From positions 992,001 through 1,056,000 of the forward strand of contig NZ_CP121679.1 in NCBI RefSeq assembly GCF_029760895.1: a stretch of 64,000 bases of DNA, read 5' to 3'. This document shows, piece after piece, positions 28,679 to 52,319 of this stretch. Both the position numbers and the translations under genes were made by a program. Position 1 is the stretch's first letter, and every line of letters begins with the position of its first letter. Under the pieces are notes generated by a model. That model did not search any database and was not told the DNA's origin. It saw only the letters and a program-made list of their open reading frames with translations. Origin of the DNA: Ancylobacter sp. WKF20 (lineage in GTDB: Bacteria > Pseudomonadota > Alphaproteobacteria > Rhizobiales > Xanthobacteraceae).

Positions 28679-30109
28679 TCAGGCGCCGTAGCCGACGATG
28701 CCCTTGATCTCGAGGAAATCGCGCAGCCCGAAATCGGCATATTCGCGCCCGTTGCCGGACTGCTTGTAGCCGCCGAACGGCGCGAACAGATCCCAGTCCG
28801 GGTAGTTCAGATAGACCGAGCCCGCCCGGAGCTGCCGCGCCACGCGGCGTGCCTCAACGATATCCGTTCCCTGCACATAGGCCGCAAGGCCATAGGGCGT
28901 GTCATTGGCGATGGCGACCGCTTGATCGACGCTGTCATAGGGAATGATCGACAGCACCGGGCCGAAAATTTCCTCGCGCTCGATCCGCATGCCCGGCTTC
29001 ACATGGCCGAACACGGTCGGCTTCACATAATAACCGGTCTCCAGACCCTCGGGCTTGCCCGTGCCGCCGACCACGAGAGTCGCGCCCTCGTCGATGCCGG
29101 CCTGGATGAGACCTTGCACCTTGGCGAACTGCACGTCGCTGACCAGCGGGCCGATCTGCGTCTCGGTGTCGGTGGGCGAGCCGACGCGCACCGACGCCGC
29201 CGTCCGCCGGGCGATCTCCAGCGCCTCGTCATGCCGGGCGGCGGGAACGAGCATGCGGGTCGGTGCGTCGCAGGACTGCCCGGTATTGCCGAAGCAGGCG
29301 CGCACGCCTTCGGCCACGGCGGTCTCAAGATCGGCATCCGGCAGGATGATGTTGGCGGACTTGCCGCCAAGTTCCTGCGCCACGCGCTTCACCGTCGCCG
29401 CGGCATTGCGCGCGACATCGGTGCCGGCGCGCGTCGAGCCGGTGAAGGACACCATGTCGATGTCGGGATGCGAGGACAGGGCGGCGCCGACTTCCGGGCC
29501 GGTGCCGTTCACCAGATTGAACACGCCCTTGGGGAAGCCGGCCTCGTGCATGATCTCGGCGAAGACGATGCCGGAGATCGGCGCGATCTCGGAGGGCTTC
29601 AGCACCATGGTGCAGCCGGCGGCAATGGCCGGCGCGACCTTGCACATGATCTGGTTGAGCGGCCAGTTCCACGGCGTGATCAGGCCGACGACGCCGACCG
29701 GCTCATGGGTGACGCGAGTGGTGCCGCGGGTCTCGTCGAACTCGAAATTACGGAACGCCTCGATGGTCGCCTTCAGATGGCCGAGGCCGGCATAGGCCTG
29801 CGAGTCGCGGGCGCGGGCGATGGGCGAGCCCATCTCATGGCTGATCGCCTGTGCGACATCCTCATAGCGCCGCTCATAGACCGCGAGCAGGCGCTCCAGC
29901 AAAGCGAGGCGCTCTTCCTTGGTGCTGAACTGGAAGCTCGCAAAGGCGGCGCGCGCCGCCGCGACGGCGCGGTCGACATCCGCCTGCGTGCCGAGCGAAA
30001 TGGTGGCAAAGACCTGCTCGGTGGCCGGATCGACCACACCGAGCGGGCGGTTTTCCAGCGGCTCGACGAAGGCGCCGTCGATGTAGAATTTCTGCGTATT
30101 GGGGGACAT
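28679..30109 (-). CDS. NAD(P)-dependent aldehyde dehydrogenase
   Basis: A 476-residue cytosolic aldehyde dehydrogenase. The NAD-binding motif region is VVGLITPWNWPLNQIMCKVAPA, the general base is Glu246 in QELGGKSAN and the nucleophile is Cys280 in NTGQSCDAPTRM. PFGGYKQSGNGREYADFG near the end is also typical. It oxidises an aldehyde to an acid, but the exact substrate class is not resolved. It is read in the same direction as the sugar importer upstream, 102 bases after it, so it may act on a sugar-derived or polyol-derived aldehyde. Confidence 0.93.
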   Translation of the reverse strand: MSPNTQKFYIDGAFVEPLENRPLGVVDPATEQVFATISLGTQADVDRAVAAARAAFASFQFSTKEERLALLERLLAVYERRYEDVAQAISHEMGSPIARARDSQAYAGLGHLKATIEAFRNFEFDETRGTTRVTHEPVGVVGLITPWNWPLNQIMCKVAPAIAAGCTMVLKPSEIAPISGIVFAEIMHEAGFPKGVFNLVNGTGPEVGAALSSHPDIDMVSFTGSTRAGTDVARNAAATVKRVAQELGGKSANIILPDADLETAVAEGVRACFGNTGQSCDAPTRMLVPAARHDEALEIARRTAASVRVGSPTDTETQIGPLVSDVQFAKVQGLIQAGIDEGATLVVGGTGKPEGLETGYYVKPTVFGHVKPGMRIEREEIFGPVLSIIPYDSVDQAVAIANDTPYGLAAYVQGTDIVEARRVARQLRAGSVYLNYPDWDLFAPFGGYKQSGNGREYADFGLRDFLEIKGIVGYGA

Positions 30110-30211: not shown

Positions 30212-31204
30212 TCACACCCGCGCCACGCCCGGTGCCCGGCGCGCGGGCCGGCGGGCGAGGTGAAGCGTCAATTGCTGGAAGGCGATGAAGATGAACAGGA
30301 GAAGCCCCGTGGCGATCTTCGCCCACCAGCTCGAGAGCATGCCGTCGAAGCTGATATAGGTCTGGATCAGCCCCTGGATCAGCACGCCGAGGAAGGAGCC
30401 GATGACGAAGCCATAGCCGCCTGAGAGCAGCGTGCCGCCGATCACCACGGCGGCAATGGCGTCGAGCTCCACGCCCACGGCGGAGAGCGAATAGCCCGAG
30501 GAGGTGTAGAGCGAGAAGACGATGCCGGAGAGCCCCGCCAGCACGCTCGACAGGGTGTAGATCAGCACGGTGGTGCGCGGCACGTTGATGCCCATCAGCG
30601 CCGTCGCGCTGCGCGAGCCACCGAGCGCATAGACATTCGCCCCGAAGCGGGTGAGGTGCAGCAGCACCATGCCGCCCGCCACCACCGCCAGCATGATGAT
30701 CGCCGGCACCGTCAGCCGCGCCCCGCCGGCGAGCCGGATCGCGTGGTCGGACAGCGTGGCATAAAGCTCGGCATTGATCGGGATCGACTCGGTGGAGAGC
30801 AGGAAGCTGACCCCGCGCGCGAGGAACATGCCGGCCAGCGTGACGATGAAGGGCGGTAGCTCGAAATACTGGATCATCGCCCCCATCGCCGCCCCGAAGG
30901 CGGCGCAGAGCACGAGGATCAGCACAAAGGCGGCGAGCGGCGGCACGCCCCAGCGCTCGATGGCCAGCGCCAGGAACACGGTGGTGAAGCCGATGACCGA
31001 GCCGACCGACAAATCAATGCCGCCGGAGATGATGACAAAGGTCATGCCGACCGCGACGATGCCGAGAAAGGCGTTGTCGGTCAGCAGATTCATCACCACC
31101 CGCAGCGAGGCAAAGTTCGGGTAGATCGTCGCGCAGATGAGGAAGCCGGCGAGGAAGACGGCCGTGGTGGCGAGTACCGGCGTCAGGCGGGAGATCGCGC
31201 CCAT
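30212..31204 (-). CDS. yjfF: Sugar ABC transporter permease, YjfF-type
   Basis: A 330-residue RbsC-family inner-membrane permease with about nine hydrophobic segments. MTFVIISGGIDLSVGSVIGFT and VGVELDAIAAVVIGGTLLSGGYG are the conserved signatures. Gene order and similarity of the binding protein to E. coli YtfQ identify the set as the galactofuranose-type importer YtfQ-YtfR-YtfT-YjfF. The ATG at 31204 shares one base with the stop of the preceding permease. The frame runs on upstream over that gene, which is a shadow. Confidence 0.85.
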   Translation of the reverse strand: MGAISRLTPVLATTAVFLAGFLICATIYPNFASLRVVMNLLTDNAFLGIVAVGMTFVIISGGIDLSVGSVIGFTTVFLALAIERWGVPPLAAFVLILVLCAAFGAAMGAMIQYFELPPFIVTLAGMFLARGVSFLLSTESIPINAELYATLSDHAIRLAGGARLTVPAIIMLAVVAGGMVLLHLTRFGANVYALGGSRSATALMGINVPRTTVLIYTLSSVLAGLSGIVFSLYTSSGYSLSAVGVELDAIAAVVIGGTLLSGGYGFVIGSFLGVLIQGLIQTYISFDGMLSSWWAKIATGLLLFIFIAFQQLTLHLARRPARRAPGVARV

Positions 31205-32211: not shown

Positions 32212-32221
32212 CCGGCCCTCC

Positions 32222-33787: not shown

Positions 33788-33815
33788 GGCGACCTCGGAA
33801 CACGGCGGGAGAACG

Positions 33816-33881
33816 GCGCGGGCCGACCGGAGGAGGGCCGGCCCGCGCGGAGCTGGCACCGGGGGCGCGCGAGGAGCGCCC
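33816..33881 (-). promoter_or_regulatory. Two hairpins between the binding-protein and ATPase genes
   Basis: GCGCGGGCCG (33816-33825) pairs with CGGCCCGCGC (33839-33848) around 13 bases. GGGCGC (33863-33868) pairs with GCGCCC (33876-33881) around GCGAGGA. They sit in the 108-base gap after ytfQ, where sugar-importer operons commonly carry hairpins that keep binding-protein transcript levels above those of the membrane genes. Confidence 0.5.
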
Positions 33882-33895
33882 GCGGCGGAGCCGGC

Positions 33896-35110: not shown

Positions 35111-35821
35111 CTATTCGCGCGAGCCGGAAAGGGCCTGCTTCAGGCGCGAGGCGGCGGCCCGGCCGAGGCGGATGGGTTCGGCCATTCCCTGCAAGGCAAG
35201 CCGCACCTCGTCCCGGGAGCGCGTGTCGACGCTGCGGATGCGGTCGCAATTGACGATGATCGAACGTCCGAGCCGCAGGAAAGGCGGGGAGGGAAGGCTG
35301 GCGGCGAACTGGCCGACATTGCGCAGGATCATCAGCGGTGGCTGGTCGGCGATATGCACGCGGCTGAAATCGCCCTCCGCCTCAATAGCGAGAATGTCGG
35401 TAGGGACGCAGCGCACCACGCGGCCGGGCACGCGCAGCTCGATCACGTCGCTGGCGGGCGGATGAGCGGCGAGGAGCCGGCGGACGCGGTCGAGCGCCGT
35501 GTCGAGCCGTTCCGGCGCCACGGGCTTGAGCAGATAGTCCACCGCCTCCACGGCGAAGGCCTCCACGGCATATTCGGCATAGGCGGTGACGAAGATCACG
35601 CGCGGCGGCGTCGGCGTGGCGGCGAGCAGGTCGAAGCCATCGGGGCCGTTGAACTCGATGTCGAGCAGGACGAGATCGGGCTGGAGCCGGCCGAGCAGGT
35701 CGGCCGCCTCGCCCACGCTCTCGGCCTCGCCGACGATCTCGACATCGGCATGAGCCGCGAGCAGCCGGCGCAGGGCGCGCCGCGCCAGAGGCTCGTCATC
35801 GGCAATCAGGACGCGGAGCAC
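35111..35821 (-). CDS. LytTR-family response regulator
   Basis: A 236-residue response regulator. The receiver (about residues 1-118) has the acidic pair in IADDEPLARRA, the phosphoacceptor Asp54 in LVLLDIEFNGPDG, Thr79 in FVTAYAEYAVEAF and Lys99 in YLLKPVAPE. The C-terminal LytTR DNA-binding domain (about 130-230) includes DILAIEAEGDFSRVHI and FLRLGRSIIVNCDRI. It overlaps the sensor kinase gene by 16 bases and is its partner. LytTR regulators usually bind paired direct repeats upstream of targets; the divergent type I secretion genes are a likely target. Confidence 0.93.
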   Translation of the reverse strand: MLRVLIADDEPLARRALRRLLAAHADVEIVGEAESVGEAADLLGRLQPDLVLLDIEFNGPDGFDLLAATPTPPRVIFVTAYAEYAVEAFAVEAVDYLLKPVAPERLDTALDRVRRLLAAHPPASDVIELRVPGRVVRCVPTDILAIEAEGDFSRVHIADQPPLMILRNVGQFAASLPSPPFLRLGRSIIVNCDRIRSVDTRSRDEVRLALQGMAEPIRLGRAAASRLKQALSGSRE

Positions 35822-37005
35822 GCTTCGCCCTCCAGAACCAGCGTCGCAACGACCTGCCCACCCCCGGTCTCATCGAGGGTGAAGGCATGGCGGCCGGGAT
35901 AGTGCACATCAAGCCGCCGGCGCAAATTGGCGAGGCCGAGCCCATGACCGGCGCGCAGCCGGTGTGCGGGGTCCAGCCGGCCGGTATTGCTGATGTCGAT
36001 CCGCAGCGCCGGGCCTTCCATCCGTACGCTGACGGCGAGTTCCAGCACCTGCGAACGGTCGCCATGCTCGACGGCGTTCTCGGCCAGCGGCTGGAGCAGG
36101 CTGTTGGCGATCTGCCGGCCGGCGGCGGTGGGGTCCATCTCCACCCGCACCCGCAGTCGGGCGCCGAAACGGGCCTGCTGGATGCGCAGATAGGCGGCGA
36201 GGGCGGCCACCTCTTCCTCCACCGGCACCACGGGAACGCGGATGCCGGCGAGCACATGGCGCAGATAGTCGGTGAGGTCGCGCAGCATGGCCAGTGCGGC
36301 CGTGGGATGCTCCGGCACTTCCTCGGCGATGCCGTTTAGCGCGTTGAACAGGAAATGCGGGTTGATCTGCAGGCGGAGCTGCTGGATTTCCGCGGTGAGC
36401 GCTTCCGCCTTGGCCGCGAGCATCTGCGTCTCGGCGCTGAGTGCCGCCGCATGCGCCGCCTGGCGCTGGCGATCGGCCCGGATCCAGAAGAACAGCAAGC
36501 TCCAGCCGGTCAGCGCCACCGCGTAATGGGTGAAGGGCAGCGCGATCTCCTCCATCGCGCCCCAGTCCGGGATGCTCCAGCCAAAGCCCTGGCGAACCAG
36601 AACCGTCGCCAGCACGATGAGAGTGGAAGCGACCGCCGCCAGCGCGGCCATGGCTACGACCACCCGCGCGCCGAGGACCGTTCCCGAGAAAATGCGGTCG
36701 TAGACAAGGCCAAGACCGGCCGACAGTCCGACCAGAAGCAGGTAGGTCACCGCGCTCATTGCCAGCGCGACCGTGAGATCCTGATAGGTGAGCTGCCGGT
36801 TCACCAGATCGACCAGCGTGAACAGGCCCCAGCCGACGATCTGCGCCCGCGCGAACGGGGTCAGGCGATGCCACGCGCCGCTGAATGGGCCGGACGGTCG
36901 GGTGAGCGAAGCGGGCACCGACGGTTCTCCTGAGGGCCTGCGCCCGCGCCGCGGCCCGCTGGGTCGGGCCGGTGTCGGGCTCGTCGATTTCTGCGCCCCG
37001 TTCAT
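35806..37005 (-). CDS. Sensor histidine kinase, LytS/YehU-like
   Basis: A 399-residue membrane kinase. About 45 proline- and serine-rich residues precede four hydrophobic segments (roughly 52-170). The His_kinase domain carries the phosphoacceptor His217 in QINPHFLFNALNGI, and the ATPase N-box and G-boxes follow (LLQPLAENAVEHG, GHGLGLANLRRRL). There is no extracytoplasmic sensor domain, so the membrane part itself may sense the cue. The start at 37005 lies inside a 34-base sequence that is repeated at 40183 downstream of the secretion genes. Confidence 0.91.
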   Translation of the reverse strand: MNGAQKSTSPTPARPSGPRRGRRPSGEPSVPASLTRPSGPFSGAWHRLTPFARAQIVGWGLFTLVDLVNRQLTYQDLTVALAMSAVTYLLLVGLSAGLGLVYDRIFSGTVLGARVVVAMAALAAVASTLIVLATVLVRQGFGWSIPDWGAMEEIALPFTHYAVALTGWSLLFFWIRADRQRQAAHAAALSAETQMLAAKAEALTAEIQQLRLQINPHFLFNALNGIAEEVPEHPTAALAMLRDLTDYLRHVLAGIRVPVVPVEEEVAALAAYLRIQQARFGARLRVRVEMDPTAAGRQIANSLLQPLAENAVEHGDRSQVLELAVSVRMEGPALRIDISNTGRLDPAHRLRAGHGLGLANLRRRLDVHYPGRHAFTLDETGGGQVVATLVLEGEACSAS

Positions 37006-37010
37006 CGAGT
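36977..37010. repeat. 34-bp direct repeat, copy 1
   Basis: This stretch matches 40183-40216 at 31 of 34 positions in the same orientation; the three differences are adjacent (36998-37000). Copy 1 includes the start codon and first codons of the LytS-like kinase, giving AQKSTSP in frame on the minus strand. The two copies lie 3.2 kb apart and flank exactly the two type I secretion genes. Confidence 0.85.
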
Positions 37011-37136
37011 CGCGACCGCCGCGCCGGTGCCGGGATGCCTAGCCCATGGCATCTTTCCGCGACGGTGCCTAGCGCCCGAAAGCCGCGCCGATCCGCAATT
37101 CGCGGGCGCGCGGGGCCCGCTTCCCTGAGGTTCCTG

Positions 37137-38855
37137 ATGGCTGCTGCCTCGCCCGTCTCCCGTGCTCTTGCTTCCTGCCGGCCGGCCTTTGTCGCCGTGG
37201 CGGGGTTTTCCGCCGTCATCAACCTGCTGATGCTCGCCGGCTCGCTCTACATGCTGCAGGTCTATGACCGTGTGCTGAGCTCGCGCAGCGTGCCGACCCT
37301 GATCGGCCTGTCGCTGCTGCTGCTGGTCGCCTACGCCCTGCAGGGTTTTCTCGACTCGGTGCGGGTGAAGATGCTGGCGCGCATCGGGGCGCGCTTCGAC
37401 GAGCAGGTCTCGCCGCTGGCCTTCAGCGCCGCGCGGCGCCTCTCGCTGGCGGGCCGGCGCGCCGAGGAGGCGCTCCAGCCCGTGCGCGACCTCGACCAGA
37501 TCCGCGCCTTCCTGGCCTCGCTCGGGCCGACGGCGCTGTTCGACATGCCGTGGATGCCGCTGTTCTTCGCCGGCTGCTTCCTGCTGCACCCCTGGCTCGG
37601 CCTGCTGGCGCTCGGCGGCGGCATCATCATCGTCGCGCTGACCTGGGCGACCGAGCAGGCCAGCCGCGCCGCCATGAAGGCGCAGATGACCAGCCGCGGC
37701 ACGCGCGAGGCGATTGTCGAGGCGAACCGCCGTAACGCCGAGGCGCTGACCGCCATGGGCATGGGCGGCGCCTTCGCCAACCGATGGGAGGAGGCGAACC
37801 GCCGGCATGTCAGCGACTGGCTGGCCGCCGCCGATGTGACCGGCTCCAGCGGCGCCTTTGCCAAGGTGTTCCGCATGGTGCTGCAATCGGCCGTGTTGGG
37901 GCTCGGCGCCTATCTCGCCATTCACGACCAGATTTCCGGTGGCGCGATGATCGCCGCCTCCATCATGACCTCGCGCGCGCTGGCCCCCATCGAGATCGCC
38001 GTCGGCAACTGGAAGGGCTTCGTGGCCGCGCGCCTCGGGCTGCGCCGTCTGGAGCAGGTGCTGGCCTCGCCCGCTCTGGCCGAGCGGCATCACACCCCGC
38101 TCCCCCCGCCTGCGGCGCTGCTCACGGTCGACAATCTCGTCGTTGCGGCGCCGGGACGCTCGGCGCCGATCCTGTCGGGCGTGTCGCTGCAGGTGGAGGC
38201 GGGGCAGGGGCTCGGCATCATCGGGCCGAGTGCGTCCGGCAAGTCGACGCTGGTGCGGGCGCTGGTCGGCGTGTGGCGCCCGGTCAAGGGCGAGGTCCGG
38301 CTCGATGGTGCCAGCCTCGATCAATGGGCGCCCGACGCGCTGGGCCGGCATGTCGGCTACCTGCCGCAGGATGTCGAGCTGTTCGAGGGCACGGTGGCGG
38401 AGAACATCGCCCGCTTCGCGCCGAACGCGCCGGGCGAGGCCATCGTCGCGGCGGCGCGGGCGGCGGGTGCGCATGAGCTGATCCTGCGGCTGGAAGAGGG
38501 GTACGACACCCGCATTGGCGAGGGCGGCATGGCGCTGTCCGGCGGCCAGCGCCAGCGCATCGGGCTGGCCCGCGCGCTTTACGGCGCGCCGTTTCTGGTC
38601 GTGCTCGACGAGCCGAACTCCAATCTCGACCCGGATGGCGACGCCGCGCTCACGCAGGCGGTGCAGGGCGTGCGGGCGCGCGGCGGAATCGTGATCGTCG
38701 TCACCCATCGCCAGAGCGCGATTTCCTCGCTCGACCGGCTCGCGCTGATGGGCGATGGGCGGATTCAGGCCTTTGGCCCGAAGGAGGAGGTTCTGGGCAA
38801 GCTCGCCCGGCAGAACGGTGTGCCCGGCATCAAGCGCACGGCAGTGGCCTCATGA
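37137..38855 (+). CDS. Type I secretion system permease/ATPase, PrtD-like
   Basis: A 572-residue inner-membrane ABC exporter with an N-terminal six-helix domain (about residues 10-290) and a C-terminal ATPase. INLLMLAGSLYMLQVYDRVLSSRS is the PrtD/HasD-type opening in pattern. Walker A is GPSASGKST (about 364-372), the signature is LSGGQRQRIGLARAL and Walker B is FLVVLDEPNSNLD. There is no C39 peptidase domain, so substrates keep their C-terminal secretion signal. I chose the ATG at 37137, since the family begins there; the frame continues upstream in the spacer. It overlaps the adaptor gene by four bases. Confidence 0.93.
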   Translation: MAAASPVSRALASCRPAFVAVAGFSAVINLLMLAGSLYMLQVYDRVLSSRSVPTLIGLSLLLLVAYALQGFLDSVRVKMLARIGARFDEQVSPLAFSAARRLSLAGRRAEEALQPVRDLDQIRAFLASLGPTALFDMPWMPLFFAGCFLLHPWLGLLALGGGIIIVALTWATEQASRAAMKAQMTSRGTREAIVEANRRNAEALTAMGMGGAFANRWEEANRRHVSDWLAAADVTGSSGAFAKVFRMVLQSAVLGLGAYLAIHDQISGGAMIAASIMTSRALAPIEIAVGNWKGFVAARLGLRRLEQVLASPALAERHHTPLPPPAALLTVDNLVVAAPGRSAPILSGVSLQVEAGQGLGIIGPSASGKSTLVRALVGVWRPVKGEVRLDGASLDQWAPDALGRHVGYLPQDVELFEGTVAENIARFAPNAPGEAIVAAARAAGAHELILRLEEGYDTRIGEGGMALSGGQRQRIGLARALYGAPFLVVLDEPNSNLDPDGDAALTQAVQGVRARGGIVIVVTHRQSAISSLDRLALMGDGRIQAFGPKEEVLGKLARQNGVPGIKRTAVAS

Positions 38856-40165
38856 CGATCCTGGCACCAACATCGGAATACGGCCCCGCCCTGCGGCGGC
38901 TGACCCTGATCGGCGGAGCGGCGGTGCTGCTGTTCGCCGGCACTGTGGGCGTCTGGGCGCTGGCCTCGACCCTCAACGGCGCGGTCGTCGCCACCGGCCA
39001 GTTCGTCGTCGATGGCAATGTGAAGAAGGTGCAGCACGCCACCGGCGGTGTCGTCGGCGAACTTAAGGTTCGCGAGGGCGACCAGGTCGAGGCGGGCGCG
39101 GTGCTGATCCGGCTCGACGACACCATCACCCGCGCTAATCTTCAGGTGGTGACCCAGCAACTCGACGACTTCGCCGCGCGTCAGGGGCGGCTGATCGCCG
39201 AGCGCGACCGCCTTGAGGTTATCGAGGTGGCGCCGGAGCTGGTGCCGCGAGCGGGCGAGCCGGCAATCGCCAAGCTGATCGCCACTGAGCAGAACCAGTT
39301 CGAGGCCCGCCGGGCGGCGCGTGAAGGGCGCAAGGCGCAGCTTGCCCGGCGGATTGGCCAGCTTGAGGACGAGGTGACGGGTCTTCGCGCCCAGCAGGCG
39401 GCGCGCGACCGGCAGGCGGCGCTGATCGCCGAGGAGTTGAAGGGCGTGCGCGACCTTTACGCCAAGAACCTCGTGGCGCTCTCCCGCAAGGCGGCGCTGG
39501 AGCGCGAAGCGGCGGAGCTCGACGGCGAGAAGGGTCGCCTCATTGCGGCGGTCGCGCAGACCGAGGGCAAGATCGCCGAAACCCGGCTGCAGATCATCGA
39601 GATCGACGATGTGCTGCGCGAGGAGGTGATGAAGGAGCTGAGCGAGATTCAGGCCAAGGCGGCCGAACTCGCCGAGCGGCGCATCGCCGCCGAGGACCAG
39701 CTGAAGCGCGTCGATATCAGGGCGCCGAGCGCCGGCTTCGTGCATCAGCTCACCGTCCATACGGTGGGCGGCGTCATCACCCCGGCGGAGCCCGCCATGC
39801 TGATCGTACCGGCGCGCGAAGCGCTTCAGGTGGAAGCGCGCGTCAACCCGCCGGACATCGACCAGATCGTGCCCGGCCAGCGGGCGGATGTGCGCATCCA
39901 CGCCTTCAACCAGCGCACAACGCCGCTGCTGGCCGGCAGGGTGGCGCGTGTCTCGCCCGACACCAGCCGCGACCCGCAGACCGGCGCGGTTTTCTACACG
40001 ATCCGGGTGGCGATCCCACCCGAGGAGCTGGCGCGGCTGGCGCCGCAGACGGTCAGCGCCGGTATGCAGGCCGAAGTGTTCGTGCGCACGCAGGACCGCA
40101 CGCCGCTGCAATACATCGCCAAGCCGTTGCAGGATCAGATCGCCCGCGCCTTTCGCGAGCGGTGA
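38852..40165 (+). CDS. Type I secretion membrane fusion protein, HlyD/PrtE family
   Basis: A 437-residue adaptor with one N-terminal membrane span (about residues 17-38). The biotinyl-lipoyl-like hairpin follows (VVDGNVKKVQHATGGVVGEL), then a long periplasmic coiled coil rich in E, A, R and L (about 95-290) and the barrel with VDIRAPSAGFVHQLTVHTVG. It joins the ATPase to an outer-membrane TolC protein, which is not encoded in this window. The start overlaps the ATPase stop (ATGA). The giant multidomain protein encoded next is its obvious cargo. Confidence 0.93.
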   Translation: MTILAPTSEYGPALRRLTLIGGAAVLLFAGTVGVWALASTLNGAVVATGQFVVDGNVKKVQHATGGVVGELKVREGDQVEAGAVLIRLDDTITRANLQVVTQQLDDFAARQGRLIAERDRLEVIEVAPELVPRAGEPAIAKLIATEQNQFEARRAAREGRKAQLARRIGQLEDEVTGLRAQQAARDRQAALIAEELKGVRDLYAKNLVALSRKAALEREAAELDGEKGRLIAAVAQTEGKIAETRLQIIEIDDVLREEVMKELSEIQAKAAELAERRIAAEDQLKRVDIRAPSAGFVHQLTVHTVGGVITPAEPAMLIVPAREALQVEARVNPPDIDQIVPGQRADVRIHAFNQRTTPLLAGRVARVSPDTSRDPQTGAVFYTIRVAIPPEELARLAPQTVSAGMQAEVFVRTQDRTPLQYIAKPLQDQIARAFRER

Positions 40166-40182: not shown

Positions 40183-40216
40183 GGGCTCGTCGATTTCTGC
40201 GCCGTCTTCATCGAGT
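40183..40216. repeat. 34-bp direct repeat, copy 2
   Basis: Second copy of the sequence at 36977-37010, placed between the HlyD-family gene and the giant glycosidase gene. On the minus strand it can be read as MKTAQKSTSP, close to the kinase N terminus MNGAQKSTSP, so it looks like a duplicated gene start without the rest of the kinase. No functional gene continues from it. Confidence 0.8.
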
Positions 40217-40305: not shown

Positions 40306-43300
40306 ATGGCCGGCACCATCTATTCCGCGGAACTGCCTGCGTCCGGTCAGCGGCGCATCGAGGGCTTCAACCCGGCGAGCGACAAGCTCGATCTCGGCTC
40401 CAACTCGGTGCATGGCTACATTGTCGTCGATACCGGCGAGGGCGTCGCTTTCATGGACCCGTGGAGCGGCAGGCAGACGCTGATCGTCGGCATCTCGCTC
40501 GGCCAGCTCACCGTGAACAGCTTCGTGCCGGTGGAGAATGATCATCTGCGGCAGGATCTCAGCGGCGCGCTGGCCTGGGAACATGGCATCACGCAGAAGC
40601 CCAACACTGTCTATGCGCGCTCGCACGAGGTCGGCCAGATCGACCGCGTGGCGTTCAACGCCGACACGGATGTGGTCGACTTCCGCTATTACGGCACGCG
40701 CGAGCAGCTCTATATGGTGGACGGCGCCGAGGGCGTGGTCATCGGCAATTACACGACCGGCCAGACGTTGATCCTGCTCGGCACGACGGTGGCCGACCTC
40801 TCGGCCGATAACTTCCTGTTCCATTCGGCGCAGGTGCGCGAAGACCGCATCTTTCTGCAGCTCGGCTTGGCTTCCGTTCCTGATTCGCAGGTGATCAGCC
40901 GTGCCGACATCCCGACTGTCGGCACCAATGTGTGGCCGACGACCGCCGGCCCCGGTGCCCCGCCGAGCGGCGTCACCGGCACGACCTATCTGATCGACTG
41001 GGATTACGGCTCCAAGACCGTGCTCGACTTCGACCCGGCGACGGACAAGCTGGACTTCAAGTATTTCCGCCCGGCCGAATTCACCGTGGCGGAGGTGAAC
41101 GGCTCCACGGTCATTACCATTGTCGGGCAGAACCAGACCTACACGCTGACCGGCGTCTCGCTGGCGGAACTGGACTACAACAACATCGTCGCGGTGGAAG
41201 ACGCCACCTACCAGAAATGGCGCGGCCTCATCGAGGCGGCGGATGCCGGCGGCACGCTGCCGACGCTCCGCGTCGCCGATGCCCAGCTCTCCGAAGGCCA
41301 GAGCGGCACGAGCTTGATGAGCTTCACCGTCACCCTGTCAAAGGCGGCGGCGGGTGTGGTCAGCGTCGACTACTCGACGCTGAACGGCACGGCGCTGGCT
41401 GGTTCCGACTATCAGGCCGCTATCGGCCGGCTCACCTTCCAGCCGGGCGAGACAAGCAAGACGGTGCAGGTCACCATTAACGGCGATGCCATTTTCGAGC
41501 TCAACGAGGCGTTCGATCTCGTCCTGTCCTCGCCGTCCGGCGCGACGCTGGCGGATGAGCGGGCGACCGGCACCATTGTCAATGACGACGCGCAGGCGCC
41601 CAACGTGCTGCCGGCCGTCTCCATCGCCGATCTGTCGGTGACGGAAGGCGACGGCGCCCATGTGCATTTCATGTTCCTGGTCACGCTCGACAAGGCGTCC
41701 ACCAGCCCGGTGACGGTGCAGTACCGCACGGCGAACGGCACCGCGCTCGCCGGGTCGGACTATGAGGCGACCAGCGGCACGGTGACCTTCGCGGCGGGCG
41801 AGACCGCCAAGCAGATCCATGTCGACGTGATCGGCGACAAGGTCGCGGAGGCTGATGAGCGGTTCACGGTCGAGCTGTCCGCCCCCACGGGCGCGACCAT
41901 CGCCGACGGCTCGGCCACCGGCACGCTGCTGAACGATGACGGGCTGACGCCGACCCCCGTTCCGGCCCTGTCCGTCGCCGATCTGTCGGTGTCCGAAGGC
42001 AATGGCGACCACGTCCACTTTATGTTCATGGTCACGCTCGACAAGCCCTCGACCACGCCCGTGACGGTACAGTATCGGACGGTCAACGGTACGGCGGTCG
42101 CCGGCACTGATTATGAGGCAACCAACGGCACCCTCACTTTCGCGCCGGGCGAAACCAGCAAGCAGGTCCATGTCGACATTATCGGGGACAAGATAGTCGA
42201 GGCGGATGAGCGGTTCACCGTCGAGCTCTCGGGCCCCACGGATGCGACCATCGCCGACGGCACGGCCACCGGCACTCTGCTGAACGACGATGCCGCGGCC
42301 CCGCCCGCCGGCGGCAACAGCCTCGCCTTCGCGGTGACGGACAATTGGGGGGCGGGCTTTACCGGCGCGATGACGCTGAAGCCCGTCGCCGCGCTGAATG
42401 GCTGGACCGTGGAGTTCGACGCTTCGTTCGACATCAGCAACATCTGGAACGCCGAGATCGTCAGCCATGTCGGCGACCACTACGTCATCCGCAACGCCGC
42501 CTGGAACGGCAAGGTGGCGGCCAATGGCGAGGTGAGCTTCGGCTTCCAGGCGTCGCCCGGCGGCACGGCGATCGTCGCCGATGATTTCGTCATCAATGGA
42601 ACCCCGGCGGGGGGAGGGACGGACCCGGTGCCGGTTCTGCCGACGCTCGCCATCAGCGACGCCAGCGTCGCCGAGGGTAATGACGGCACCTCTTACCTCT
42701 CCTTCACCGTCACCCTTTCCAAGGCGGCAGCGAGTGCGGTGAGCGTCGCCTATGCCAGCGCCAACGGCACGGCGACCGCCGGGCAGGACTATCAGGCGGT
42801 ATCGGGCACGCTGACCTTCGCGGCGGGCGAGACCTCGAAGGTCATTCGCGTGCCGGTGATCGGCGACAAGGTGGTGGAGGCCAATGAGGCGCTGAGCATC
42901 GCGCTCTCCAAGCCCTCCGGCGCGACGCTGGCCGATGCCAGCGGCACCGGCACCATCACCAATGACGACGTTGCGCCCACCCTGCCGACGCTCGCCATTG
43001 GCGACGCCAGCGTCGCCGAGGGTAATGACGGTACGGCCTATCTCTCCTTCACCGTCACCCTGTCCAAGGCGGCGGCGGGTGCGGTGAGTGTCGCCTATGC
43101 CAGTGCCAACGGCACGGCGACCGCCGGGCAGGATTATCAGGCGGTATCGGGCACGCTGACCTTCGCGGCGGGCGAGACCTCGAAGGTCATCCGCGTGCCG
43201 GTGATCGGCGACAAGGTGGTGGAAGCGAACGAGGCGTTGAGCATCACGCTCTCCAAGCCCTCCGGCGCGACGCTGGCCGACGCCAGCGGCACCGGCACCA

Positions 43301-46116
43301 TCACCAATGACGACGTTGCGCCAACCCTGCCGACGCTCGCCATCAGCGATGCGAGCGTGGCGGAGGGGAATGACGGCACGGCCTATCTCTCTTTCACCGT
43401 CACCCTCTCCAAGGCGGCAGCGAGCGCGGTGAGCGTCGCCTATGCCAGCGCCAACGGCACGGCGACCGCCGGGCAGGATTATCAGGCGGTATCGGGCACG
43501 CTGACCTTCGCGGCGGGCGAGACCTCCAAGGTCATCCGCGTGCCGGTGATCGGCGACAAGGTGGTGGAAGCGAACGAGGCGCTGACCATCACGCTCTCCA
43601 AGCCCTCCGGCGCGACGCTGGCCGACGCCAGCGGCACCGGCACCATCACCAATGACGACGTGACGCCGCCGCCCACCGTCTCGGTGGCCGGCACGACCGT
43701 GGTCGAGGGCGATGCGGGCGCGGGCGGCGGCGCGGCGGATGGCTGGTTCTCGACCTTCGGCAACCAGATCGTCGATTCCGACGGCAACCCGGTGAAGCTC
43801 GCCGGCGTGAACTGGTTCGGCTTCGAATCCTCCAACGCTTCCCCGCATGGCGTCTGGACGCGGTCCTACACGGACATGATGGACCAGATGAAGGAACTGG
43901 ACTTCAACACCATCCGGCTGCCCTTCGCCAGCGCCACGCTGCACGCCACCAGCGCCAGCGGCATCGACTACAGCCAGAACCCGGACCTGCGCGGCCTGAC
44001 GCCGCTGCAGATCATGGACAAGATCGTCGCCTATGCCGAGGAGATCGGGCTGAAGGTCATTCTCGATCATCACCGCTCTTCCTTCGGCGCCGGGACCTCG
44101 GAGAATGGGCTCTGGTACGACAGCACCTACACGGAAGCCGCCTGGATCGACGACTGGCAGATGCTGGCGGAGCGCTATGCCGACAACACCGCCGTCATCG
44201 GCGCCGATCTGCATAACGAGCCCTATAACGGGACATGGGGCGGCGGCGGTGCCCGTGACTGGGCGGCGGCGGCCGAGCGGGCCGGTAACGCCATTGGCGA
44301 AGTCAACCCGAACTGGCTGATCATCGTCGAGGGCGTCGGCTCCTATGAGGGCGCCAATTACTGGTGGGGCGGTAACCTCAAGGGCGTGGCCGACCGGCCA
44401 ATCGAGCTCGATGTGCCGAACAAGCTGGTCTATTCGGCGCATGACTATGGCAACTCGGTCTATGAGCAGCCCTGGTTCAAGGATCCCAACTTCGCCGCGC
44501 AGCTCCCTGCGAAGTTCGACGAGATGTGGGGCTATATCTACCGCGAGAACATCGCGCCGGTGCTGATCGGCGAGTTCGGCACCAAGCTGACCGACCCGAA
44601 GGACGCCCCCTGGCTGGAGGCGCTGACCTCCTACATGGCCGGCGACTTCGACAATGACGGCACGATCGACATTCCCGCCGGCCAGGAGGGCATCAGCTGG
44701 ACCTATTGGTCGTGGAACCCCAATTCCGGCGATACGGGCGGCATCCTCGCCGATGACTGGCGCACGGTGAACACCAACAAGATGGCCTATCTCGAGCCGA
44801 TCCAGTTCGATCTGGAGGAGGGGGGCAGTAGCGGCGCCGGCACCTATGCCGTGTTCACCATCACCCTCTCGGCTGCCGCCACGCAGGCCGTGACGGTGAA
44901 CTATCAGACGGTCGCCGGCACAGCCGGGGCTGACGACTTCACGGCGGCCAGCGGCACGTTGAACTTTGCCGCCGGCGAGACCACCAAGACCGTGCGCATC
45001 GCCATCACCGGCGACAATCTCGCCGAAGCCACGGAGAGCTTCACCCTGCTGCTCAGCAATGCACAGGGCGCGGTGATCGGCGTCGCGCAGGCAAGCGCGG
45101 TGATCCAGGATGATGACGCGGCCGCCCCGACCCTCCCCACGCTCAGCGTCAGCGACGCCACGGCGCTGGAGGGCAGCGCCAGCGCGGCGGGCATGCTCAC
45201 CTTCACTGTCACCCTGTCGGAAGCCGCGACCGGGCCGGTGAGCGTGAAATACGCGACCGCGAACGGCTCGGCGGTGGCCGGACAGGATTATCAGGCGGCG
45301 TCCGGCACGCTGACCTTCGCGGCGGGTGAAACCAGCAAGACCATCAAGGTCGCCGCGATCGGCGATGGCGTGCTGGAGGGCAACGAGACCTTCAACCTCG
45401 TTCTCTCCAGTCCCACCGGGGCCACGCTCGCGGATGGCACGGGACGGGGCACCATCGAGAATGACGATGCCGCCCCGCCCGCTGGCGGTGACGCCGTGTC
45501 CTTCACGGTCGCCAGCAATTGGGGCACCGGCTTTACCGCCGCGATGACGCTGAAGCCCGAGGCCACGCTGAACGGCTGGACCGTGGAGTTCGACGCCCCC
45601 TTCGACATCTCCAACATCTGGAACGCCCAGATCGTCAGCCATGTCGGCGACCATTATGTGGTGCGCAACGCCTCCTGGAACGGGAAGGTGGCGGCCGGCG
45701 GGGAGGTGAGCTTCGGCTTCCAGGCCTCGGGCGGCAGCGCCACGGCGGATGATTTCATCGTCAACGGCCGCGCGGTTGGCGGGGAGGAGGCGAGTGCCCT
45801 GCGCACGGCGTCCGTGTCGCTCAGCAATGACGTGATCGACGCGTCCATCGCGTTGGTCGAGAGCCGGGCCGCTGACTTCACCGCCGAGGTGACATTGCAC
45901 AATGAGGGCGCCGCGCTGAGTGGCTGGACGCTGGAGATCGACACGCCCTACGAGATCGCCCAGCTCCAGGGGGCGGAGATCGTCTCCCGTGACGAGGACG
46001 GCTATGTCGTCCGCAACCTCGCCGCCACCGCCGCCCTCGACCACGGCGCGGATGTGCGTTTCCAGCTGGTGGGACACGGCACCTTCGATAGCTCGCAGTT
46101 CGACTTCCTGATCTAG
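40306..46116 (+). CDS. Giant secreted Calx-beta/GH5 endoglucanase/CBM2-like protein (type I secretion cargo)
   Basis: A 1936-residue protein without signal peptide, preceded by AGGAGG and by its presumed type I exporter. Order: three related N-terminal beta modules with DKLDF/DKLDL-type motifs (about 1-315); Calx-beta repeats (about 320-425, 435-545, 552-662); a CBM2-like module (about 671-765, NGWTVEFD); three nearly identical Calx-beta repeats (about 778-1122); a GH5 domain resembling Acidothermus E1 endoglucanase (about 1144-1503), with acid/base Glu1305 in DLHNEPYN and nucleophile Glu1423 in LIGEFGT; two more Calx-beta repeats (to about 1723); and two CBM2-like modules (about 1729-1825, 1830-1936). 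No RTX nonapeptides are seen. The end DFLI resembles the acidic-plus-hydrophobic C-termini of PrtD-type substrates. It should hydrolyse cellulose or another beta-glucan outside the cell. Confidence 0.92.
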   Translation: MAGTIYSAELPASGQRRIEGFNPASDKLDLGSNSVHGYIVVDTGEGVAFMDPWSGRQTLIVGISLGQLTVNSFVPVENDHLRQDLSGALAWEHGITQKPNTVYARSHEVGQIDRVAFNADTDVVDFRYYGTREQLYMVDGAEGVVIGNYTTGQTLILLGTTVADLSADNFLFHSAQVREDRIFLQLGLASVPDSQVISRADIPTVGTNVWPTTAGPGAPPSGVTGTTYLIDWDYGSKTVLDFDPATDKLDFKYFRPAEFTVAEVNGSTVITIVGQNQTYTLTGVSLAELDYNNIVAVEDATYQKWRGLIEAADAGGTLPTLRVADAQLSEGQSGTSLMSFTVTLSKAAAGVVSVDYSTLNGTALAGSDYQAAIGRLTFQPGETSKTVQVTINGDAIFELNEAFDLVLSSPSGATLADERATGTIVNDDAQAPNVLPAVSIADLSVTEGDGAHVHFMFLVTLDKASTSPVTVQYRTANGTALAGSDYEATSGTVTFAAGETAKQIHVDVIGDKVAEADERFTVELSAPTGATIADGSATGTLLNDDGLTPTPVPALSVADLSVSEGNGDHVHFMFMVTLDKPSTTPVTVQYRTVNGTAVAGTDYEATNGTLTFAPGETSKQVHVDIIGDKIVEADERFTVELSGPTDATIADGTATGTLLNDDAAAPPAGGNSLAFAVTDNWGAGFTGAMTLKPVAALNGWTVEFDASFDISNIWNAEIVSHVGDHYVIRNAAWNGKVAANGEVSFGFQASPGGTAIVADDFVINGTPAGGGTDPVPVLPTLAISDASVAEGNDGTSYLSFTVTLSKAAASAVSVAYASANGTATAGQDYQAVSGTLTFAAGETSKVIRVPVIGDKVVEANEALSIALSKPSGATLADASGTGTITNDDVAPTLPTLAIGDASVAEGNDGTAYLSFTVTLSKAAAGAVSVAYASANGTATAGQDYQAVSGTLTFAAGETSKVIRVPVIGDKVVEANEALSITLSKPSGATLADASGTGTITNDDVAPTLPTLAISDASVAEGNDGTAYLSFTVTLSKAAASAVSVAYASANGTATAGQDYQAVSGTLTFAAGETSKVIRVPVIGDKVVEANEALTITLSKPSGATLADASGTGTITNDDVTPPPTVSVAGTTVVEGDAGAGGGAADGWFSTFGNQIVDSDGNPVKLAGVNWFGFESSNASPHGVWTRSYTDMMDQMKELDFNTIRLPFASATLHATSASGIDYSQNPDLRGLTPLQIMDKIVAYAEEIGLKVILDHHRSSFGAGTSENGLWYDSTYTEAAWIDDWQMLAERYADNTAVIGADLHNEPYNGTWGGGGARDWAAAAERAGNAIGEVNPNWLIIVEGVGSYEGANYWWGGNLKGVADRPIELDVPNKLVYSAHDYGNSVYEQPWFKDPNFAAQLPAKFDEMWGYIYRENIAPVLIGEFGTKLTDPKDAPWLEALTSYMAGDFDNDGTIDIPAGQEGISWTYWSWNPNSGDTGGILADDWRTVNTNKMAYLEPIQFDLEEGGSSGAGTYAVFTITLSAAATQAVTVNYQTVAGTAGADDFTAASGTLNFAAGETTKTVRIAITGDNLAEATESFTLLLSNAQGAVIGVAQASAVIQDDDAAAPTLPTLSVSDATALEGSASAAGMLTFTVTLSEAATGPVSVKYATANGSAVAGQDYQAASGTLTFAAGETSKTIKVAAIGDGVLEGNETFNLVLSSPTGATLADGTGRGTIENDDAAPPAGGDAVSFTVASNWGTGFTAAMTLKPEATLNGWTVEFDAPFDISNIWNAQIVSHVGDHYVVRNASWNGKVAAGGEVSFGFQASGGSATADDFIVNGRAVGGEEASALRTASVSLSNDVIDASIALVESRAADFTAEVTLHNEGAALSGWTLEIDTPYEIAQLQGAEIVSRDEDGYVVRNLAATAALDHGADVRFQLVGHGTFDSSQFDFLI
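42641..43675 (+). repeat. Three near-identical 345-bp tandem repeats (115-residue Calx-beta units)
   Basis: Units start at 42641, 42986 and 43331, with an exact 345-base period. The translated units differ at only a few positions (for example ISDASVAEGNDGTSY, IGDASVAEGNDGTAY and ISDASVAEGNDGTAY). Other Calx-beta units of the same protein are much more diverged, so these three arose by recent duplication or are kept alike by gene conversion. Copy number may vary between isolates and could be collapsed in short-read assemblies. Confidence 0.92.
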
Positions 46117-46448: not shown

Positions 46449-46451
46449 ACA

Positions 46452-49430: not shown

Positions 49431-52319
49431 GTGATTGAGCAGAACACAGCTTTAGCCGGGCCGGTACGATTCGGGCCCTTCACCTTCTACCCGGGCCAGC
49501 AATTGCTGGCGCAGGACGGGGTGGCGGTGACGCTGGGCAGCCGCGCGCGGGCCCTTCTGGCGACGCTTCTCGACCATCACGGTGCCGTTGTCAGTAAGGC
49601 GCAGCTCATCCAGAGCGCCTGGCCGGAGACCTTCGTCGAGGAAGCCAATCTGCGCGTGCACATCGCAGCCCTGCGCCGCGCGCTTGGCGATGGGCAGGAG
49701 GGGCGGCGCTACATCGTCAATATCTCCGGGCGCGGGTATTCCTTCGTGTTTCCGATCACGCGCGAGGACATCCCGCCGACGCGCGAGAGGCTGATCGAGC
49801 CCAGCGGTGTTAGCGCGAACCTGCCTCCGGTGCCCGCGCGCATCGTCGGCCGCACCGCGACTGTGCAGTTCATCACCTCGCTTCTGCGCGAGCAGCGCTT
49901 CGTCTCGCTCGTCGGTCCCGGTGGCATCGGCAAGTCGACCGTGGCGCTCGCGGTCGCTCATGACCTCGCCGCCGGTTTCGGCGACGGAGTCTGCTTCGTC
50001 GACCTGTCGGCCCTGAATGACCCGCAGCTCGTCCCGACGGCCGTGGCGGCAGCTATGGGGATCGGCGTGCGCACGGACCAGTTGCTGCCCAGCCTGATCG
50101 CCGCGACCCGCTCCAAGCGCCGGCTCCTGCTGCTGGACAGCTGCGAGCATGTCATCGACACCGTCTCCGACCTCGCGGAAGCGCTGTTCCTCGGGGGCGG
50201 CGAGGGCCTTCACATCCTCACCACCACGCGCGAGCCGCTGCGGGTGCGTGGCGAGCACATCCATCGTCTGTCCGCGCTCGATTCCCCGCCGCCGCGCCCC
50301 GGCCTCACCAGCGCCGAGGCTCTGCAATACCCGGCCGTGCAGCTCTTCGTGGAACGCGCCGCGGCGAGCCTCAACGGCTTCCGCCTGATCGATGCGGAAG
50401 CGTCCGTCGTCGCCGATCTCTGCCGGCGGCTGGACGGGATTGCGCTGGCCATCGAGATCGCGGCGGGCCGGGTCGAAAGCCTCGGCGTGGTCGGCCTCGC
50501 CAATCTGCTCGACGATCGATTCCGGCTGAACCTGCAGGGCCGCCGGACGGCACGGCAGCGCCATCAGACCCTGAGCACGCTGCTCGACTGGAGCTACGCG
50601 CTGCTTCCGCCGTTCGAGCAACTCGTCCTCCGGCAATTGGCGATACTGGCCGGCACCTTCACCGTCGATGACGCCATCGCCATCGTCGCCGATGACGAGG
50701 CCACGGACCAGAAAGTCATCAGCGCCCTCGCCAATCTCGTCGAGAAGTCACTGGTCGTCGCCGATGTGCATGGCTCGCAGGCGCGCTATCGCTTGCTCGA
50801 CACAACGCGCGCCTATGCCAGCCTGAAGCTCGCTGAGAGCGGCAAGCTCGACCTGCTCCGGCGCCGGCATGCGGAGATTTTCCGTGATGCGCTCGACAGC
50901 GCCAATCGTGATTGGCCGCGACGCCCTGCGCCGGAATGGACCCGGAACCATCACCACCTGATCGACAATGCCCGCGCCGCCCTCGACTGGGCGCTGTCGC
51001 CCGACGGCGACACCGAGATCGCCGTGGCCCTGACGCTCGGGGCCGTGCCGCTGTGGTTCCAGCTTCAACTCATCGCCGAAGCCTATGTCCATGTCAGCGC
51101 CGTGCTGGCGCGGGTCGATGGCACCTGCCCGGCGCAGGTTCAGATGCGCCTCCAGGCGGTGCTGGCCTGGTCGCTCATGCAGATCAAGGGGCAGGTGGAC
51201 GAGACGCGGGCCGCCTGGCAGCGGACCTTCGATCTGGCGGAAAGCCTCGACGACACCGACTATCAGCTGCGCGGCCTGTGGGGGCTGTGGTCCGGCCTGC
51301 TCAACCGGAGCCGCTTTCAGGAAGCGCTGGCCCTGGCGCAACGCTTCGCCGACGTCGCCGCCCGCCGCAGCGACCTGAACGACAGCTATGTCGGCCACCG
51401 CATGATCGGCTACATCCTGCATCTGCTCGGCCGGCAGACGGAGGCGCGCCGGCACCTCGAGCACATGGTCAAGGGCTATGTCGTGCCGACCACCGGCGAC
51501 CAGATCATCCGCTTCGTGTTCGAGCAGAAGCTCACCGGCCGCTGTTTCCTCGCGCGAATTTTCTGGCTGCAGGGCGCGTTCGACGCCGCGCTGGCCGAGG
51601 TCGACGACATCGTGGCGGTCGCCGAAGCGAGCGACGACCGGCTGACGCTGTGCCAGGTGCTGGTGCAGGCGGCATGCCCGGTCGCGCTGTTCGCCGACGA
51701 CCTGCCGCGCGCCCGGCGCTACATCACCCGGCTGGTCGACGTCTCCGCGCAGGACGGGATCGAGTTCTGGCAGGTGTGGGGCCAGTGCTTTGCGGGGGTG
51801 CTCGCCGTCCGCGAGGGCGACCTGTCGATCGGCGTCAAGAACCTCGGCGACGCGCTGATCAAGCTCCGGGGCATTGCCTATGGCGTGTACTACATCGTCT
51901 TCCTGGCGGAATACGCCCAGGCCCTTGCGCGGGCTGGCGAACTCGGCCGGGCGCGGGCCTGTCTGGCCGAGGCGCTGGCCCGCTCGCAGGAGAATGAGGA
52001 GGGCTGGTTCGCCGCGGAGCTCTGGCGGCTCACCGGCGAGTTCACCCGCCTCGGCAATGAGCCCCGCACTGACGAAGAGGCTGAAGCGGCGCTGATGACG
52101 GCCCTGCGGATCGCCCGTGAGCAGGAGGCGACCTTCTGGGAGATCAAGGCCGCCCTGAGCCTTGCCCGGCTTTGGCAGGCGCAAGGCCGTGCGGGCGAGG
52201 CTGAAGCCATGCTTTCCCCGCTGGTCCGGCACCGCGACGGCGCGCATGCCTTGCTGACCGAGGCGCGCGCCCTGCTGAGCGAATTGCGCGCGCCGGGAAG
52301 CCTCGACGGAACGCCCTGA
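49431..52319 (+). CDS. Large winged-helix/P-loop ATPase/TPR transcriptional regulator (AfsR/MalT-like architecture)
   Basis: A 962-residue cytoplasmic regulator. Residues about 12-105 form an OmpR-type winged helix (GSRARALLATLLDHHGAVVSKAQLI and LRVHIAALRRALGDG). The ATPase region has P-loop GPGGIGKST (about 162-170), Walker B-like RLLLLDSCEH (about 229-238) and a sensor RLDGIALAIEIAAGR. The C-terminal half is helical with TPR-like repeats. Such STAND proteins switch by ATP and ligand binding. The GTG at 49431 is the only suitable start, and its ribosome site is weak. Position after the sugar importer suggests control of the carbohydrate region. Confidence 0.86.
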   Translation: MIEQNTALAGPVRFGPFTFYPGQQLLAQDGVAVTLGSRARALLATLLDHHGAVVSKAQLIQSAWPETFVEEANLRVHIAALRRALGDGQEGRRYIVNISGRGYSFVFPITREDIPPTRERLIEPSGVSANLPPVPARIVGRTATVQFITSLLREQRFVSLVGPGGIGKSTVALAVAHDLAAGFGDGVCFVDLSALNDPQLVPTAVAAAMGIGVRTDQLLPSLIAATRSKRRLLLLDSCEHVIDTVSDLAEALFLGGGEGLHILTTTREPLRVRGEHIHRLSALDSPPPRPGLTSAEALQYPAVQLFVERAAASLNGFRLIDAEASVVADLCRRLDGIALAIEIAAGRVESLGVVGLANLLDDRFRLNLQGRRTARQRHQTLSTLLDWSYALLPPFEQLVLRQLAILAGTFTVDDAIAIVADDEATDQKVISALANLVEKSLVVADVHGSQARYRLLDTTRAYASLKLAESGKLDLLRRRHAEIFRDALDSANRDWPRRPAPEWTRNHHHLIDNARAALDWALSPDGDTEIAVALTLGAVPLWFQLQLIAEAYVHVSAVLARVDGTCPAQVQMRLQAVLAWSLMQIKGQVDETRAAWQRTFDLAESLDDTDYQLRGLWGLWSGLLNRSRFQEALALAQRFADVAARRSDLNDSYVGHRMIGYILHLLGRQTEARRHLEHMVKGYVVPTTGDQIIRFVFEQKLTGRCFLARIFWLQGAFDAALAEVDDIVAVAEASDDRLTLCQVLVQAACPVALFADDLPRARRYITRLVDVSAQDGIEFWQVWGQCFAGVLAVREGDLSIGVKNLGDALIKLRGIAYGVYYIVFLAEYAQALARAGELGRARACLAEALARSQENEEGWFAAELWRLTGEFTRLGNEPRTDEEAEAALMTALRIAREQEATFWEIKAALSLARLWQAQGRAGEAEAMLSPLVRHRDGAHALLTEARALLSELRAPGSLDGTP

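Follow-up and report, generated by a model that had tools for sequence, protein, structure and literature searches.

The window analysed here, the whole 64-kb stretch of DNA, is part of a 4.63-Mb one-contig genome that is Ancylobacter-like (Xanthobacteraceae). ORF and domain searches recovered all the genes named in a preliminary description of this DNA, at about the positions it had assigned to them; it spoke of six functional units, and its own list counts seven. Several mechanical ORF starts were too early and were re-chosen by homology and position. The more likely start of prtD is 37137, a GTG at about 36918 is the likelier start of the kinase, whose mechanical ORF extends to 37005, and starts at 46452 (MalE-like gene), 31204 (yjfF), 32211 (ytfT) and 33787 (ytfR) are again the more likely ones. 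The genes and features are as follows.

28679-30109, minus strand: aldehyde dehydrogenase
30212-34861, minus strand: galactofuranose-type importer (YtfQ and YjfF above NCBIfam cut-offs)
35111-37005, minus strand: mechanical ORFs of the LytTR response regulator and the PF06580 kinase
35111..35821, minus strand: LytTR response regulator, receiver plus LytTR domain (PF00072 and PF04397 over cut-off)
35806..36918, minus strand: membrane histidine kinase of PF06580 type (PF06580 73.6 bits, cut-off 25.2)
36980..37010, plus strand: putative operator 1, direct repeat with a period of 21 bp (30.5 bits; 127 bp before the prtD ATG)
37046..37052, plus strand: ATGGCAT element, possibly part of a promoter (45 bp after the start of the second half-site)
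37137-40165, plus strand: PrtD and PrtE pair
37137..38855, plus strand: PrtD-type ABC exporter (TIGR01842 710.8 bits, cut-off 510.15)
38852..40165, plus strand: PrtE-type membrane fusion protein (TIGR01843 380.9 bits, cut-off 208.65)
40186..40216, plus strand: putative operator 2, nearly identical 31 bp (30.5 bits; 90 bp before the cellulase ATG)
40306..46116, plus strand: GH5 cellulase of 1936 aa, probably secreted, carrying Calx-beta and CBM2 modules
40306..41235, plus strand: conserved N-terminal module of the cellulase, residues 1-310, three related units
42316..42615, plus strand: internal CBM2, residues 671-770
42637..43661, plus strand: three near-identical tandem Calx-beta units (period 345 bp, 94% DNA matches)
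43771..44727, plus strand: GH5 catalytic domain, residues 1156-1474 (PF00150 175.9 bits)
45490..46116, plus strand: C-terminal CBM2 (residues 1729-1826), degenerate CBM2-like end domain and terminal FDFLI tail
46452-49342, plus strand: MalE/MalF/MalG-like importer
49431-52319, plus strand: winged-helix and NTPase regulator (AfsR-like)

YtfR and YtfT of the galactofuranose-type importer fall slightly below their NCBIfam cut-offs. Elsewhere in the window, positions 23960-24010 hold a tandem repeat of 19 bp (2.7 copies, 96% matches).

The regulator's best NCBIfam match is BtsR, below cut-off, and a PDB search with it returned, among the best 60 of 95 matches, the receiver domain only and no LytTR relative. 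The pair had been described as LytS/LytTR, a name that suits the LytS/AlgZ-like catalytic part of the kinase; the sensor domain of LytS, a multi-TM domain that we take to be 5TM-5TMR_LYT, gave no Pfam match in a search of the whole protein (E to 0.001).

The giant cellulase and its relatives

Eight Calx-beta stretches were found in the 1936-aa cellulase. Its N-terminal module has no Pfam match in this copy, and its degenerate end domain was judged by eye from the sequence. The nearest solved structures to the GH5 domain are CelE2 (8fc0_A, E 7.9e-162) and endocellulase E1 (1ece_A, E 1.8e-109), with all 326 query residues aligned end to end with CelE2 and with the E1 catalytic domain. E1305 in HNEPY and E1423 in IGEFG, which we assume to be the two catalytic glutamates of the GH5 fold family, are both aligned in 8fc0. 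Unlike in E1 and CelE2, the domain is here set among Calx-beta and CBM2 modules, in a protein without a Sec-like signal.

Among the best 80 of 154 matches, the nearest relative comes from Ancylobacter radicis (93% within the GH5 domain); this cellulase has 1704 aa, 232 residues fewer, about two Calx-beta units. Mycobacterial homologues (L026-L031, L033-L037, L044) reach 67-72% in GH5 and mostly have Sec-like N-termini; the N-terminal module is present in seven mycobacterial loci at 62-66%. In the GH5 tree the actinobacterial rows form a single clade (97/99) that lies within the half holding nearly all alphaproteobacterial rows, and this nesting suggests that the cellulase moved between phyla. 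Three proteins, P0089, P0100 and P0108 (the last from Reyranella aquatilis), carry the N-terminal module, CBM2 and Calx-beta and no GH5, as if the giant protein had been split at that point. In Xanthobacter sp. NM-59 (L004:8358-9011) the N-terminal module is out of frame with the rest of the cellulase, which would reflect either a broken gene or a sequencing error.

The genome also encodes a cellulose synthase catalytic subunit over cut-off (2906767-2908908), and trimming of the cell's own cellulose in a biofilm therefore rivals attack on plant cellulose as food. We hold this alternative to be possible, at somewhat less than even odds: the enzyme's CBM2 domains, and a GH5 domain close to those of E1 and CelE2, suit plant cellulose equally well, and the synthase, which was sought in the own genome only, lies about 1.9 Mb from the cellulase.

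Linkage of the LytTR pair to the cellulase

A scan of named genomes with the GH5 domain gave 154 loci, the best 80 of which were taken (39 were classed as alphaproteobacterial, with one contig contributing two copies, L052 and L056; 16 were classed as actinobacterial, and planctomycete or other loci made up the remaining 25). The window's genes were compared with these 80 loci by tblastn. Of the 39 alphaproteobacterial loci, 27 have the kinase in divergent orientation to the cellulase, and 26 of these also have the regulator behind the kinase; the sequence of the remaining one, L042, ends first. One of the other twelve loci, L017, begins inside the cellulase, and a 42% kinase is encoded elsewhere in that genome. 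Of the 17 genomes whose cellulase loci have no adjacent kinase, 15 lack a kinase match at E 1e-25; in L019 the kinase match is absent from the genome, yet a borderline operator-like site (16.8 bits) is present. When neighbouring ORFs were clustered for 38 of the 39 alphaproteobacterial loci, again from the best 80 of 154 and with families assigned by position, the widespread families among the best 30 clusters were the cellulase, the kinase, the regulator and their opposite-strand or internal shadows, with no further conserved neighbour.

Samples drawn by taxonomy agree with this linkage. In 119 genomes of the window's family (true cellulase at E below 1e-160, kinase at E to 1e-25), the cellulase is present in 14, and the kinase is adjacent and divergent in all 14; these genomes mostly overlap the loci of the GH5 scan, with the exception of G060, G018, G013 and G082. 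The kinase occurs in 19 of the 119 genomes in total, and in only 5 of the 105 without GH5, one of which (G116) is a 72% complete assembly with the kinase at a contig end. Eleven further family genomes have weaker GH5 matches only, at 41% or less. Across the class (385 genomes; cellulase at E to 1e-90, kinase at E to 1e-40), the cellulase was found in six genomes, the kinase in five and both in three, adjacent and divergent each time; the cellulases without the kinase are the three most distant (51-59%), and both kinases without the cellulase are partial matches. Kinase-regulator distances track GH5 distances over 27 rows (Mantel r 0.718; largest r among 2000 permutations 0.341), a correlation that owes part of its strength to shared host ancestry.

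A putative direct-repeat operator

The junction between kinase and cellulase contains direct repeats of about 10 bp with a period of 21 bp, YTCRYCGAKT-N11-YTCRYCGAKT. The 28 junctions (27 loci and the window) are over-rich in TTCATCGA/TTCACCGA, and a half-site matrix fitted to pairs gave a period of 21 in 23 of them, 20 in four and 23 in one. Two loci, L023 and L025, have an extra half-site 20 bp upstream of the period-21 pair. The regions used for fitting were too short in L003, L006, L016 and L040, where the sites were recovered by a scan of the whole locus; the matrix used throughout is the one fitted with these short regions included.

With this matrix, which was trained on the positive loci, a period-21 site of at least 20 bits precedes the cellulase in 27/27 kinase-bearing loci from the best 80 of 154, and in none of the 10 kinase-less alphaproteobacterial, 12 actinobacterial or 20 planctomycete and other loci of the same set. 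Outside this count stand 11 loci of the 80: nine whose sequence starts within the cellulase (L017, L034, L038, L041, L043, L058, L063, L066, L069), the second copy L056, and L072. Only 1 of 1232 random stretches from the same loci reached 20 bits. In cross-training, a matrix from the Ancylobacter-type regions placed 18 of 19 others above 99% of shuffles, and a matrix from the other loci did so for 6 of 9 Ancylobacter-type regions; all four failures are the too-short regions. In six loci outside the training set (L169-L174), 21 was the best of periods 18-24, on the cellulase-facing strand and in the junction, in 6/6. Their scores are 28.1, 26.7, 27.6, 15.4, 19.8 and 20.8 bits, 4/6 at 20 or more, and the 15.4 bits of L172 are no better than its top reverse-strand match (15.6). 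At 20 of 35 sites, the distance from the start of the second half-site to an ATGnCAT-type element is exactly 45 bp; it is 44 bp in one case and 35-40 bp in three, and the remaining 11 sites have no such element in the stretch that was scanned.

According to the available portion of one account (PMC11347149), a canonical LytTR site consists of two 9-bp direct repeats separated by 10-13 bp, and LytTR regulators mostly act as activators, bound upstream of the -35. The present arrangement, with paired repeats of about 9 bp 12 bp apart, would be of this kind, and direct repeats at the promoter of the presumed target were found in 27/27 kinase-bearing loci. Operator 1 contains CCGTTCATC, which has 8/9 bases as in the AlgR box CCGTTCGTC given in the accessible text of another report (PMC4064291). 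The PF06580 kinase and the receiver-LytTR regulator are likewise as in AlgZ-AlgR, BtsS-BtsR and AgrC-AgrA. Unlike in the known LytTR systems, the putative target is a secreted cellulase together with its exporter, the LytS sensor domain was not found, and the consensus YTCRYCGAKT is the operator's own.

The next best operator-like site in the 64-kb window scores 16.8 bits. A loose version of the pattern was rejected: it hit the own genome 447 + 423 times, whereas the reversed control hit it 45 + 43 times; the hits of the loose pattern are probably mostly coding, 21 bp being seven codons. The strict pattern that replaced it matches the own genome exactly at two places only, operators 1 and 2, and at three with up to one mismatch. 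At the same tolerance in ten genomes, it matched at the locus in four of the seven with the cellulase (G000, G062, G051, G013) and was absent there from G060, G018 and G006; two of the three same-genus genomes without cellulase and kinase have one strict match each elsewhere.

Export route and a proposed regulon

The preliminary description had the cellulase without a signal peptide. We concur, on hydropathy only, and add what it had not mentioned, that the RTX nonapeptide GGxGxD occurs nowhere in the 1936 aa. An acidic-hydrophobic C-terminus was found in 32 of 38 alphaproteobacterial, 1 of 15 actinobacterial and 0 of 20 planctomycete or other homologues (from the best 80 of 154). We take such an extreme C-terminus to mark HasA/PrtB-like type I substrates, and the cellulase is likely one of them. 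PrtD-like matches are present in 35 of 37 alphaproteobacterial genomes with the cellulase, but in none of the 9 mycobacterial or 3 planctomycete genomes, in a search that covered 49 genomes from 50 of the 80 GH5 loci (best 80 of 154). Together with the missing N-terminal signal and the C-terminus, this distribution argues for the type I export that had been proposed. A TolC-type protein is encoded elsewhere in the genome (1456173-1457432; TIGR01844 334.5 bits, cut-off 225.15). The N-terminal module is no secretion mark, because it is also present in mycobacterial homologues with Sec-like signals.

Placement of the exporter beside the cellulase is much narrower. Among the best 80 of 154 loci, high-identity PrtDE lies between kinase and cellulase in L001, L002, L003, L006, L032 and L040, and PrtD follows the cellulase in L004 and L005; apart from one Xanthobacter, every locus with PrtDE next to the cellulase is of Ancylobacter type. 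In L042, a Reyranella MAG, a 47% PrtD lies about 1.6 kb after the cellulase. A. radicis has a second PrtD (44%) on the opposite strand about 2.5 kb after its cellulase (L001:14830-16602). In the family sample PrtD (E to 1e-130) is present in 80 of 119 genomes, in 11/14 with the cellulase and 69/105 without, and is thus not clearly enriched; it is adjacent to the cellulase in 2 of the 14. A search of related genomes had been suggested for conserved co-occurrence of pair, exporter and GH5 protein, and while the kinase accompanies the cellulase in 14/14 family genomes, the exporter is adjacent in those two alone. Outside Ancylobacter, GH5 homologues are routinely found without an exporter beside them, an observation that the preliminary description itself had named as counting against its proposal. 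The proposed link of LytTR pair, exporter and cellulase is supported in Ancylobacter, with its two near-identical operators; a general partnership of exporter and cellulase is not supported.

All seven loci with PrtDE upstream of the cellulase (the window, L001, L002, L003, L006, L032 and L040, the six from the best 80 of 154) have two operators, one before prtD and one before the cellulase, whereas L004 and L005, with the PrtD ORF directly after the cellulase, have one each. L005 and L006 are sisters in the GH5 tree (100/93), and gene order must therefore have changed more than once or reverted. We read the two operators and the two gene orders as signs of selection for joint control. No site above 16.7 bits was found before prtD in eight distant regions (L155-L162), and those exporters therefore do not look like members of the regulon.

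We propose that the LytTR pair controls both the cellulase and PrtDE in a dedicated two-component regulon, and that the cellulase is exported by PrtDE, a reading to which we give a probability of about 0.74. It starts from what the DNA itself displays, that is the gene linkage, the operator pattern and its co-occurrence with the kinase, the two operator copies, the domains and the C-terminal pattern; at that level, a regulon of kinase-regulator, operator and cellulase into which the exporter was drawn appears well supported. The membrane kinase would phosphorylate the LytTR regulator, which would then bind the 31-bp operator through its two direct half-sites (period 21 bp) and activate transcription outward from the kinase. 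Most alphaproteobacteria with the regulon would have the giant GH5 cellulase as its target at the locus. In Ancylobacter, the PrtDE type I exporter presumably came to lie between kinase and cellulase, and the exporter and cellulase units, each with its own operator copy, would allow pump and cargo to be made together. PrtDE may recognise the acidic-hydrophobic C-terminus, as with HasA- or PrtB-like substrates, and the cellulase would leave through PrtD-PrtE and a TolC protein encoded elsewhere. Outside the cell, the CBM2 domains would hold the enzyme on cellulose while the GH5 domain cuts it.

The cellulase might instead exit by another route or another type I system, with the neighbouring PrtDE serving other proteins. 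A second PrtD over cut-off is indeed encoded in the own genome, in a PrtDE pair (L124:8169-13406, near 2263 kb of the genome) beside a 1122-aa ORF without RTX that is perhaps that pair's own cargo, and most alphaproteobacterial relatives have no PrtD adjoining the cellulase. This alternative appears unlikely given the operator shared by prtD and cellulase, the order cellulase then PrtD in L004 and L005, and the cellulase's acidic-hydrophobic C-terminus. It is also conceivable, and in our view very unlikely, that the repeat is an autoregulatory site of the kinase-regulator operon only, with the cellulase a passive neighbour. LytTR genes can regulate themselves, and the divergent junction places the site some 60 bp ahead of where the kinase likely starts; however, seven loci have a second copy about 3.2 kb away, directly before the cellulase, all sites before the cellulase are oriented alike towards it, and the ATGnCAT element of 20/35 sites sits at one fixed place on the cellulase side.

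The genes on either side of this proposed regulon had been joined with it into one region for carbohydrate acquisition. The flanks fetched for seven Ancylobacter-type loci (L001, L002, L003, L005, L006, L032 and L040, from the best 80 of 154) extend about 0.7-2.5 kb beyond the regulator on the furanose-importer side (5.4 kb in L005) and contained no match to the binding protein or permease of either importer; they gave generic ABC ATPase matches only (27-32%) and a 36% aldehyde dehydrogenase in L006. The MalE-like gene begins 335 bp after the cellulase, and a promoter and terminator scan of that interval found one weak terminator-like hairpin, no more than chance. The MalE/F/G-type cluster (46452 to 49342) contains no ATPase gene. 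A joint function of the exported cellulase with the furanose and MalE-type importers, the aldehyde dehydrogenase and the AfsR-like regulator is most improbable: the genes do lie side by side in this genome, both importers are real and L009 and L010 have distant MalF/MalG-like permease matches (28-33%) on the regulator side, but the importers lack an operator and are unmatched in those short flanks, the MalE-like gene follows the cellulase only after a gap, and cellulose gives cellobiose, not galactofuranose. The sugar importers look like unrelated neighbours, and what had been taken for a six-unit region is a real module in surroundings that are largely due to chance.

A broader reading, to which we would give even odds, is that a portable LytTR cassette owns the giant cellulase across several alphaproteobacterial families and that Ancylobacter annexed an exporter by operator duplication. 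The regulon would then have two targets, cargo and pump, under co-control in two gene orders: pump after cargo with one operator, or pump before cargo with an operator of its own. The export tag would depend on the phylum, with a type I tail in alphaproteobacteria and a Sec-like signal in mycobacteria.

The nearest known exporters are PrtDEF and HasDEF of the RTX-less HasA class. As described in the text at hand, HasD has no C39-like domain and HasA no RTX (PMC8277102); PrtD here likewise lacks the C39-like domain, and its candidate substrate has neither Sec signal nor RTX. The system differs in its cargo, a 1936-aa modular cellulase, in the absence of the outer-membrane gene from the locus, and in the LytTR pair that would be in control. 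Alphaproteobacterial type I export of glycanases has a counterpart in rhizobial PrsDE with PlyA and PlyB: in the part of the report available, the plyA glycanase gene adjoins prsDE, the type I substrates are treated mainly as RTX proteins, and a LytTR operator pair, unlike here, is not described (PMC2275737). In the literature searched, which included few subscription papers, no report of a LytTR-controlled cellulase was found.

With the proposed regulon, an orphan LytTR pair would gain a concrete target set and a defined operator, and the Ancylobacter loci may show how operator duplication can draw an exporter into its cargo's regulon. The 1936-aa cellulase, RTX-less and signal-less, can be put forward as a candidate type I cargo whose exporter is encoded next to it, a combination that might help to make Gram-negative hosts secrete cellulases.

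Second kinase-regulator pairs (L116-L123) were also examined for their neighbours. Two of them (L116:9633-12504 and L117:237-2993; 49-50% kinase) are followed by a gene resembling a LuxR-type regulator, before which lie weaker operator-like repeats of 20.9 and 18.9 bits. The LytTR pairs in L118-L122 are more distant; large divergent ORFs lie beside those in L119 and L121 and one large ORF is near that of L120, perhaps encoding outer-membrane receptors. In L122 a 2402-aa ORF is preceded by an operator-like site of 28.1 bits, and L175 and L176 (family f44, partial kinase match) have nearby operator-like sites of 24.4 and 23.4 bits on the opposite strand.
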